Source: a virus. Taken from it: a stretch of DNA of 53,643 nucleotides. The notes beneath the pieces are model-generated. The model worked only from the letters and a program-made list of their open reading frames with translations. It was not told the origin of the DNA and searched no databases. Positions 7,699-10,480 of the stretch are shown here, piece after piece; positions within the stretch are counted from its first letter, which is position 1; each line of letters opens with the position of its first letter. The stretch covers positions 1-53,643 of IMG/VR virus record IMGVR_UViG_3300049477_000020. One strand, written 5' to 3'. A program made the position numbers and the translations under genes.

Positions 7699-8028
7699 GT
7701 CTTCGTCGGCATCCTCATCGGACTCAGCCTCAGAGACCATCTCTGGAGTGGCGCATCTCCGATGATAGTACAGGTCGAAGCGCTCGCCGTCCTCATCCTC
7801 GAACTCAGCCGAGAGCGTGTCGGGGTCCTGGAGGTCCAGAGCCCCTCCGCACTCATCACAGACATCCGGCTCGGCCATGAAGTCCAGAACGCTCATCTCC
7901 GAGGTGTAGGAGGCGATGTCCCCCTTCAGGGACTGGAGAAACTCCCCCAGATTGAAGCCCAGATGGACGTGGAAGTGGAAGGTGACGGCCTTCTCCAGCC
8001 TGGCTGCGAGGCTGGAAAGTGGTCCCAT
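7696..8028 (-). CDS. Hypothetical acidic protein with cysteine cluster
   Basis: A 110-residue protein starting MGPLSSLAARLEKAV, preceded by GGAG eight bases upstream. Residues about 57-92 contain CDECGG and a later HRRC, a partial zinc-ribbon-like pattern; the C-terminus is a run of Asp/Glu (AESDEDADED). The frame remains open far upstream, but there it only shadows the phosphoesterase gene, so this ATG is preferred. Function unknown. Confidence 0.6.
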   Translation of the reverse strand: MGPLSSLAARLEKAVTFHFHVHLGFNLGEFLQSLKGDIASYTSEMSVLDFMAEPDVCDECGGALDLQDPDTLSAEFEDEDGERFDLYYHRRCATPEMVSEAESDEDADED

Positions 8029-8069
8029 AGGGCCAGTCTCCGGTACGAGGAGATCGTCCGCCAGCCAGG

Positions 8070-9455
8070 TCAGAGTTGGTCGATCTTGGCCACCCTGGTG
8101 GGGAAGTGAGGGGCTACCAGGAAGCCCACGGCGCACCCCGTAGCCACGTCTCCGGTGGCGTGCTTGAAGTAGTCGCTGCCGTCGTCCAGAGACCCAGTCT
8201 GGATCATCATGGTCCCGCTCACGTCCTCCATGTGGAAGTGGTGCTTGTGGCCCAGGAGCATGACCTCCATGTCGAACTTGTCCTCTGTGTGCTTGGCTGC
8301 TGAGCCCACCTGCTTCAGGACCCACCCAGTGAGTTTCCCCTGCTTGTCGGCCTTGTGACCGTGGGTAGATCCGATCCTCACCCCAGCGAACTCGTAGAGA
8401 GTGAAGGGGTCGTCGTGGGGGATGTGCCAGGTGATCTGGTCAGCGATGGGGCTGCTGTCGAGCACCCTCTTGACCTGCTCAGCGATGATGAGGTCCCAGT
8501 TGTCTGACTCCGACGAACCATGGGGGCCACCGGTGACACCCCTCATCTCGCCGTGGTTGCTCGGGGTGTAGACCTTGGTGATCGGCAGCCCGAGCGCAGC
8601 GAAGGCCTCGGTACGAGCGATGTCGGACTCGATGGCGTAGTTGATCTGAGTCCGCATTGTCTCAGTTGTCCGATTCTGGCTGGGATAGTGACCTACGATG
8701 TTCTCGACTCTATCGCCCGCTGCGTTGTCCAGGATTGCGGTGATGTTGACGCCCGCCTTGATGTGGCTGCGGATGGCGTCTATCGACTTCTGGAGCACTC
8801 GGGACTCGCGCTCTTCGAGGTTCTTCAGTCCGCCGCCGCCACGGTTCTTGCCTGCCTGCTCGTCACCCTGGTGGTGGACGTAGCCGACGGGTTGCCCGTT
8901 CCCCATCCTCTGGGTGCCACCAGTGTGCTTGATCGGGTAGCGCTTCGTCTTCATGCGCTTGACTGCTGCTTCGATGTCCTCTTCGGTGAGGAGGACCTCA
9001 TCAGTCTTGCGCTCGATGCGAGCCCGATACGAGTAGAGCGTCTTGATGTCGCGGTCGCCGTTGTCCAGACGCTTGGAGGTCTCCCACGAACTGACGCGAA
9101 CGGGTCCGACAACATCCCAGTTCTCTGGGTCATCGAGACCCAACTTCCTCAGTATCGGCTCGTAGCCAGTGTTCGCTGTGATCTTTGCAGTCAGCGGGCC
9201 TGTCTCCAGCACACCCTTGTCGCCCTCGATCTCTAGGCTGGGCTTGATGGCGTCTTTGGACTCTTCATCCTTCTTCTTGCGACGAGGAGATGCCTCCGCA
9301 GCCGGAGTGCCCATCTGTAGCCGATAGCGACGGACTGCTGAGGTCGATGTGCCGATGCGCTTCGCCGCTTCGACGTAGGTGAGACTGAGGTCGTCTGCGA
9401 TTGCCTTTCCTTTAGGATCGTCGGCCAACTTCTCTCTGAGCCCGATTCTTCCCAC
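8070..9455 (-). CDS. Helix-turn-helix/metallophosphoesterase fusion protein
   Basis: A 461-residue protein with GTG start after GGGGAGAGATA. Residues about 24-46 (SLTYVEAAKRIGTSTSAVRRYR) form a helix-turn-helix, followed by a basic linker (RRKKKDEESK). The C-terminal half has phosphoesterase-type metal motifs: SNHGE near residue 300, STHGHK near 365 and LLGHKHHFH near 401. The layout suggests a DNA-binding domain that tethers a phosphodiesterase or nuclease to DNA, broadly analogous to Mre11/SbcD nucleases. Similar proteins occur in many actinophages. It is unrelated in length and motif detail to the smaller phosphoesterase at 1380-2333. Confidence 0.75.
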   Translation of the reverse strand: MGRIGLREKLADDPKGKAIADDLSLTYVEAAKRIGTSTSAVRRYRLQMGTPAAEASPRRKKKDEESKDAIKPSLEIEGDKGVLETGPLTAKITANTGYEPILRKLGLDDPENWDVVGPVRVSSWETSKRLDNGDRDIKTLYSYRARIERKTDEVLLTEEDIEAAVKRMKTKRYPIKHTGGTQRMGNGQPVGYVHHQGDEQAGKNRGGGGLKNLEERESRVLQKSIDAIRSHIKAGVNITAILDNAAGDRVENIVGHYPSQNRTTETMRTQINYAIESDIARTEAFAALGLPITKVYTPSNHGEMRGVTGGPHGSSESDNWDLIIAEQVKRVLDSSPIADQITWHIPHDDPFTLYEFAGVRIGSTHGHKADKQGKLTGWVLKQVGSAAKHTEDKFDMEVMLLGHKHHFHMEDVSGTMMIQTGSLDDGSDYFKHATGDVATGCAVGFLVAPHFPTRVAKIDQL

Positions 9456-9515: not shown

Positions 9516-9689
9516 TCAAGAGGGCTCGACATCGGGTTTGCCAGGGGGAACGTAATCACTCGGACGGTCGAAGAAGTTGCGCAGAATCCAATCGGCTGCG
9601 TCGTACTTGCCCATGAGGTTTGCCATCGTCACCACATCGCGCATCTGGTCGGTGACAGATCGCTGATCCTGCTGCTTGTGTGCTGACAC
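9516..9689 (-). CDS. Small hypothetical protein (57 residues)
   Basis: A short gene with GTG start and a strong ribosome site (GAAGGAGACCAA). The product begins MSAHKQQDQRSVTDQM and contains VTMANLMGKYDAADWILRNF, a convincing amphipathic helix, before a Pro-rich end. Regular codon use and the ribosome site argue it is real. It is the first gene of the leftward unit that reads into the HTH-phosphoesterase gene 60 nt away. No family recognised. Confidence 0.65.
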   Translation of the reverse strand: MSAHKQQDQRSVTDQMRDVVTMANLMGKYDAADWILRNFFDRPSDYVPPGKPDVEPS

Positions 9690-9789: not shown

Positions 9790-9814
9790 GTGAGGCGCCC
9801 GCAGGGCGTTTCAC
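9790..9814 (+). other. Hairpin in the 9.69-9.96 kb intergenic region
   Basis: GTGAGGCGCCC-GCA-GGGCGTTTCAC forms an 11-bp stem as plus-strand RNA with two G-U wobbles; on the minus strand those positions would be A-C mismatches. The surrounding 9690-9850 segment has no supported gene and contains a repeated GCCCTAAG. Confidence 0.3.
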
Positions 9815-9856
9815 CCCCAAACCCCCTACGCGAGCCAGAGCGTACACCACACCTCA

Positions 9857-9886
9857 TTGGACCTGTCAAGGACCTGGCCATAGACT
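9857..9886 (+). promoter_or_regulatory. Candidate plus-strand promoter
   Basis: TTGGAC, 18-nt spacer, TAGACT, placed directly before the hairpin and small ORF described next. Partial match to sigma70 consensus; it would start transcription near 9893. Confidence 0.4.
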
Positions 9887-9897
9887 GGTCTCCTATC

Positions 9898-9941
9898 CAC
9901 CAGAAACGCAACGGCCACGCCTGGTCGTTGCGTTTCTGGTG
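9898..9941 (+). repeat. 16-bp perfect inverted repeat (5' hairpin of the plus-strand unit)
   Basis: CACCAGAAACGCAACG and its exact reverse complement flank a 12-nt loop. The hairpin lies between the candidate promoter and the ribosome site of the small ORF, so it would form the 5' end of the RNA. It might also be an operator or protein-binding site. Confidence 0.7.
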
Positions 9942-9958
9942 CCTACAGAAGGAAGATC

Positions 9959-10042
9959 ATGCAGATGCTCGGCGTTGCGTTCGCCTACCTCCTCACACAG
10001 GAGAAGGTTCGCAAGGGGAAGGGCCGCCACAAGCGGTTCTAA
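9959..10042 (+). CDS. Candidate 27-residue peptide, only plus-strand gene
   Basis: MQMLGVAFAYLLTQEKVRKG followed by KGRHKRF; 28 codons including TAA. GAAGGAAG lies five bases before the ATG. The N-terminal half is apolar and the C-terminal half strongly basic, so the peptide could be an amphipathic membrane- or nucleic-acid-binding microprotein. It sits between a promoter-like sequence with 5' hairpin and a strong terminator-type hairpin, which supports a genuine short transcript; the RNA itself may be the functional product. Confidence 0.5.
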   Translation: MQMLGVAFAYLLTQEKVRKGKGRHKRF

Positions 10043-10051
10043 GCCCCTCTA

Positions 10052-10105
10052 CAGCCTGAGGCCGGTCCAGTGTCATCACGACACCTAGACCGGCCTCTTC
10101 GGCTG
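10052..10105. terminator. Bidirectional terminator-type hairpin between convergent units
   Basis: Core stem GAGGCCGGTC / GACCGGCCTC (10 bp) encloses an inner 5-bp stem (GTGTC/GACAC) and is extended by outer CAGCC/GGCTG. It lies just after the plus-strand small ORF and just after the stop of the minus-strand 121-residue gene. Confidence 0.7.
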
Positions 10106-10114
10106 TCTGGAGGG

Positions 10115-10480
10115 CTACATGCCCTGCCTGGGGTCTATCAGGCCGGGGAGCGGTTTGCCGTGACCGTTCTGCTGCGGCAGAGGAGTCTCCATGGCCTTCT
10201 GGGCAGCCTCTGACCGCTGGTTCTTCAGATACTCCATCATCTGATTGACCATGCTGGGGATGTCCTTGTCCACGACGACCTCCCCTTGCAACGTCTGGGC
10301 CACCATGCGCTCACCGATCCCGAGCCCTGGGATGCTGACGAGGTAGATGAGCACGGGGGCGGCTTGGCCGTTAGCACCAGGCACCACCGTCAGCGAGACT
10401 GCGTAGTGCACATCCTCTCCGAGGGCGTACGTCTCCACCGCCTCTGCCATGATCTTGGTGTTCTCTTCGAGGATGTTCAC
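10115..10480 (-). CDS. Hypothetical protein downstream of the SNF2-like helicase
   Basis: A 121-residue protein with GTG start overlapping the helicase stop (GTGA). It starts MNILEENTKIMAEAVETYA, has a central beta-rich part (HYAVSLTVVPG, VLIYLVSIPG) and a polar, Gln/Pro-rich C-terminus. No family recognised. Translational coupling to the helicase suggests a partner or accessory role; that is inference. Confidence 0.65.
   Translation of the reverse strand: MNILEENTKIMAEAVETYALGEDVHYAVSLTVVPGANGQAAPVLIYLVSIPGLGIGERMVAQTLQGEVVVDKDIPSMVNQMMEYLKNQRSEAAQKAMETPLPQQNGHGKPLPGLIDPRQGM

Follow-up and report, generated by a model that had tools for sequence, protein, structure and literature searches.

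Candidate micro-moron in a compact rightward unit between two leftward operons of a probable actinophage

A compact unit at positions 9858-10105, reading rightward between genes that read leftward, raises the question of whether it is a small gene, a regulatory RNA, or a site acting as DNA. The stretch analysed (hereafter the window) is an entire virus record of 53,643 bases, and its protein set includes tail sheath, baseplate and tape-measure-like proteins, two helicases, and an MRE11-like exonuclease, with distant matches to proteins of phages of Mycobacterium, Gordonia, Streptomyces, and Rhodococcus, among others. Because of this protein content and the distant actinophage matches, the window most likely belongs to a contractile-tailed actinophage, and because related contigs reach 103-155 kb it is probably a genome fragment; GC skew gave no usable origin signal. 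A first-pass annotation had placed all other genes on the minus strand, and this holds for every gene identified by profile or synteny. To the left of the unit are a gene for the MRE11-like exonuclease / metallophosphoesterase (8070-9455, minus strand; phrog_284, E 2.2e-33) and a 57-aa ORF (9516-9689, minus strand) that is the first in the leftward operon and has gene-like codon use. To its right is a converging gene of 121 aa (10115-10480, minus strand), which is conserved downstream of the SNF2 helicase. The unit is real and statistically exceptional, and is best filed as a candidate micro-moron, because extra DNA with one ORF between a promoter and a terminator fits the published definition of a moron (PMC3029335).

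Synteny and sequence comparison with the three closest syntenic relatives (L005, L022, and L027) show that a 245-bp segment, from 9870 to 10114, is absent from the site in all three. The 121-aa gene follows the SNF2 helicase in these relatives as well as in L003 and L004; in the three relatives, as in the window, it is followed by the exonuclease. The stop codon of the upstream gene and the leftward promoter are separated by 0-6 bp in these three genomes versus 245 bp in the window, such that the segment – as with morons – is present here and absent from relatives at the same place. Read from the sequences, six bases lie between the TGA (7947-7949) and TTGACA (7956) in L005, and the TGA overlaps TTGACA in both L022 and L027. 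The segment may have been gained in the lineage of the window or lost from the relatives; the comparison leans towards gain, because the matching gaps of the more distant relatives examined also contain no comparable stem or peptide.

The segment abuts a conserved leftward promoter, TTGACA-N19-TACGCT (9839-9869, minus strand, with TTGACA at 9869-9864), recognised by alignment and by matrix and predicted to drive the operon of the 57-aa ORF and the exonuclease. It is the best promoter match in the window (18.2 bits with a matrix derived from the nearest relative), and is followed by a conserved G-tract leader, GTAGGGGGTTTGGGGG (9814-9829, minus strand), that is found at a single place per genome. 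The promoter and the GCGTrGGGGGTTTGGGGG leader align across the window (9814-9869, minus strand), L005 (7956-8015, its version being GGGGGTAGGGGGG), L022 (4871-4930), and L027 (6859-6918), and GGGGGTTTGGGGG occurs once each in the window, the L022 contig, and the L027 contig. This arrangement is kept upstream of the exonuclease operon across genomes of about 43% and 64% GC, and the G-tract leader could form a G-quadruplex or an R-loop.

The promoter initially proposed for the rightward unit, TTGGAC-N18-TAGACT from 9857, is present but weak, matching the consensus at 3/6 and 4/6 positions. With 85 sites in the window scoring at least 7/12 to the general consensus it stands at chance level, and a generic promoter scan listed no rightward promoter there. 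Moving the parse one base rightward gives TGGACC-N17-TAGACT (9858-9886, plus strand), a candidate promoter that scores 10.9 bits and ranks 14 among all positions on both strands, compared to rank 186 for the original register with the same relative-derived matrix. The matrix was built from 14 promoter-like sites of the nearest relative (G003, locus L005), each located before a Shine-Dalgarno sequence and start codon; these have the form TTGAC-N17-TAnnnT (with exactly TAGACT as the -10 in two of the 14), and because they were picked by that pattern the matrix favours TTGAC/TAnnnT by construction. The rank suggests that the 50 nt preceding the hairpin described below would be expected to contain about 0.007 sites of this quality, although the true expectation is somewhat greater because the register was chosen after the site was seen. 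The rightward promoter has a poor -35 that shares bases with the stronger leftward promoter. Transcription of the unit is predicted to start near 9893.

Directly after the predicted start there is a hairpin with a 20-bp stem and a 4-nt loop (9898-9941, plus strand), identified by folding and by stem searches. A perfect hairpin of 16 bp had been noted here and is confirmed as 16 Watson-Crick pairs, and the stem extends to 20 pairs that include one G-U on the plus strand, which on the minus strand is an A-C mismatch. No other perfect stem in the window is as long (the maximum was 12 pairs in ten simulated sequences), and the hairpin is slightly more stable as plus-strand RNA (-36.3 versus -33.4 on the minus strand). 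When 26,792 60-nt segments were folded on both strands, the segment at 9897 was the second most stable, and the most stable was that at 10048-10107 (-42.3 kcal/mol on the minus strand and -37.7 kcal/mol on the plus strand), around a second hairpin (10050-10105) that lies between the converging genes and is probably a terminator for both strands. This second hairpin, initially proposed as a shared terminator, is strong, but it has no U-run on either strand and is not listed by a generic terminator scan. The predicted plus-strand transcript (9893-10108) folds at -112.6 kcal/mol, with a z of about -8.7 relative to shuffles.

No copies of the 5′ hairpin with 12-bp arms are present in viral contigs. 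Four viral contigs with 10-bp arms were judged to be chance matches, having different surroundings and 32-44% GC, and more than 118 genome-scan matches in unrelated bacteria were taken collectively as noise. No Rfam covariance model matches the unit above the gathering score, and identity of the hairpin with a microRNA family was rejected, the matches being sub-threshold, biologically senseless, and expected of any long hairpin. The sequence CGTTGCGTT in the 3′ arm (9921-9934) is repeated at the start of the ORF (9968-9981), making either copy a potential pairing partner of the 5′ arm.

Downstream of the hairpin are a Shine-Dalgarno sequence, AAGGA (9949-9953, plus strand), and, 5 nt further, the ATG of a 27-codon ORF, MQMLGVAFAYLLTQEKVRKGKGRHKRF (9959-10042, plus strand); both had been reported from the first inspection and both are present, with gene-like codon use in the ORF. 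Its codon score of 0.28 per codon is within the range of real genes (mean 0.34, sd 0.23 for equal-length gene pieces of the phage), at the 34th percentile of 27-codon gene pieces, whereas 420 out-of-frame ATG ORFs have a mean of -0.24 (sd 0.24). It would rank seventh against these 420, and the six that score higher have no comparable Shine-Dalgarno sequence. Codon use alone, over 26 codons, is weak evidence for a gene. Eight other ORFs in this intergenic stretch were scored, and all are negative except the leftward 57-aa ORF (0.21); alternative frames of 89, 49, and 45 codons were rejected for their negative codon scores. The Shine-Dalgarno core is predicted to be mostly paired in the fold; its sequestration by an upstream UCUCCU is not favoured, because it would require a transcript beginning no later than about 9890, ahead of the predicted start.

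The peptide has an apolar front and a strongly basic tail with a charge of about +6. As to a type I toxin, the apolar stretch is about 12 residues by eye, which is short for spanning a membrane, and the sole strong leftward promoter is not within the ORF and directs transcription away from it; an antisense partner could still come from weaker promoters or be a trans-acting RNA. No homologue of the peptide or the hairpin was found in the collections searched. Whole-contig searches of 14 relatives with the peptide gave no match (the second set having no positive control), comparing it to the gaps downstream in nine relatives gave nothing above the level of shuffles, and pattern searches returned either no match or one unrelated frame.

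The initial description of the unit as a microprotein gene or a regulatory RNA named the right pair of options, but missed that the DNA is extra, that a leftward promoter is present, and that a better register exists for the rightward one. Codon use and the Shine-Dalgarno sequence favour a microprotein, with the exceptional fold keeping the RNA alternative in play. With moderate confidence, we interpret the unit as a micro-moron – a single-gene cassette specific to this lineage, located between two leftward operons and transcribed independently – that would encode a cationic microprotein on an mRNA beginning with a protective hairpin. We infer a course of transcription, mRNA protection, translation, and peptide action in which a host-type RNA polymerase starts near 9893, and the first product of transcription would be the 20-bp hairpin, leaving few unpaired 5′ bases; the short mRNA may therefore be protected from 5′-end-dependent decay. 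A 5′-proximal stem stabilises some bacterial mRNAs, such as ompA of Escherichia coli. Translation from the ATG at 9959 would yield the 27-residue peptide, whose charge pattern would suit binding to membranes or nucleic acids and which could be a host-takeover factor, and the hairpin at 10050-10105 would end rightward transcription and also stop the converging leftward transcript. The leader excluding the hairpin would have a length of about 22 nt, not far from the 27-36 nt usual for units in the nearest relative, and single-gene units are normal in this group, since many genes of that relative have individual promoters of the same type and short leaders.

The folding results also accommodate a small structured RNA (about 215 nt), either non-coding or dual-function, acting through its hairpins as a sponge, decoy, or antisense RNA, with the ORF being incidental. 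The stability of the transcript relative to shuffles (z -8.7) and the presence in it of both stability extremes of the window are as such an RNA would predict, but gene-type codon use and the Shine-Dalgarno sequence are not, there is no fitting Rfam family, and the microRNA matches are sub-threshold; we regard this reading as unlikely. Less probable still is a dual-function RNA in which the 5′ hairpin is an effector and the 27-residue cationic peptide is also made, which would be among the smallest phage morons. The hairpin is upstream of the leftward -35 box (part of the strongest promoter there and a conserved one) by about 30-70 bp, and this location would be consistent with a role at the DNA level, whether as an operator, a cruciform, or an architectural site regulating the exonuclease operon, with the plus-strand transcript being unimportant. 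However, the relatives keep this promoter without an inverted repeat, the only imperfect pair is a G-U on the plus-strand RNA, and the ORF and its Shine-Dalgarno sequence are left unexplained, and we consider such a role very doubtful. The two hairpins, placed as they are after the stop of the upstream leftward gene and ahead of the next leftward promoter, could instead be a double terminator that insulates the SNF2 operon from the leftward operon that follows, with the plus-strand ORF present by chance. We consider this equally doubtful: neither hairpin is followed by a U-run, the relatives have no terminator at the site, and the two are separated by over 100 bp containing a gene-like frame.

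If the unit is a micro-moron, it resembles the morons of mycobacteriophages and lambdoid phages in being extra DNA between genes that are adjacent in relatives, with one ORF flanked by a candidate promoter and a candidate terminator. It differs in being only 27 codons long and reversed relative to its neighbours, and in having a promoter that partly overlaps an older one and a long hairpin in its leader. It is also similar to the predicted phage small genes described in a review (PMC11323111, citing Fremin et al. 2022), as a very short gene that annotation would miss, although no family members were found for the unit here. Small RNAs of the Cluster A mycobacteriophages D29, L5, and StarStuff were seen by RNA-seq and taken as non-coding (PMC5712189); these are likewise compact transcripts from intergenic regions of actinophages, but the transcript here is a candidate read from the DNA. 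ORFs as short as 27 codons are thrown out by gene callers. If real, the unit would indicate that about 245 bp is enough to hold a complete moron, and its signature of promoter, hairpin, short ORF, and hairpin could guide a hunt for similar micro-cassettes.

Several other features were observed in the related contigs. In L010, about 650 bases (7940-8640) downstream of the small gene that follows SNF2 have no obvious gene and are rich in paired G+C segments; the region matched neither an Rfam family nor any phage record, and could be an unrecognised structured RNA. L009 likewise has no obvious gene over a long stretch at the equivalent position (7956-8610), which contains an 11-bp terminator-like hairpin. 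From 16 to 36 kb in G003 (the L005 contig), many genes are each preceded by a TTGACA-N17-TAnnnT promoter of their own, and their leaders are short, frequently closing with GAGGAG ahead of the start codon. At 27.5-32 kb, G008 (the L027 contig) has four long hairpins of 13-15 bp whose stems are related and built around CCGGTGG or CCGGAGG; these are possibly terminators of a repeated type.
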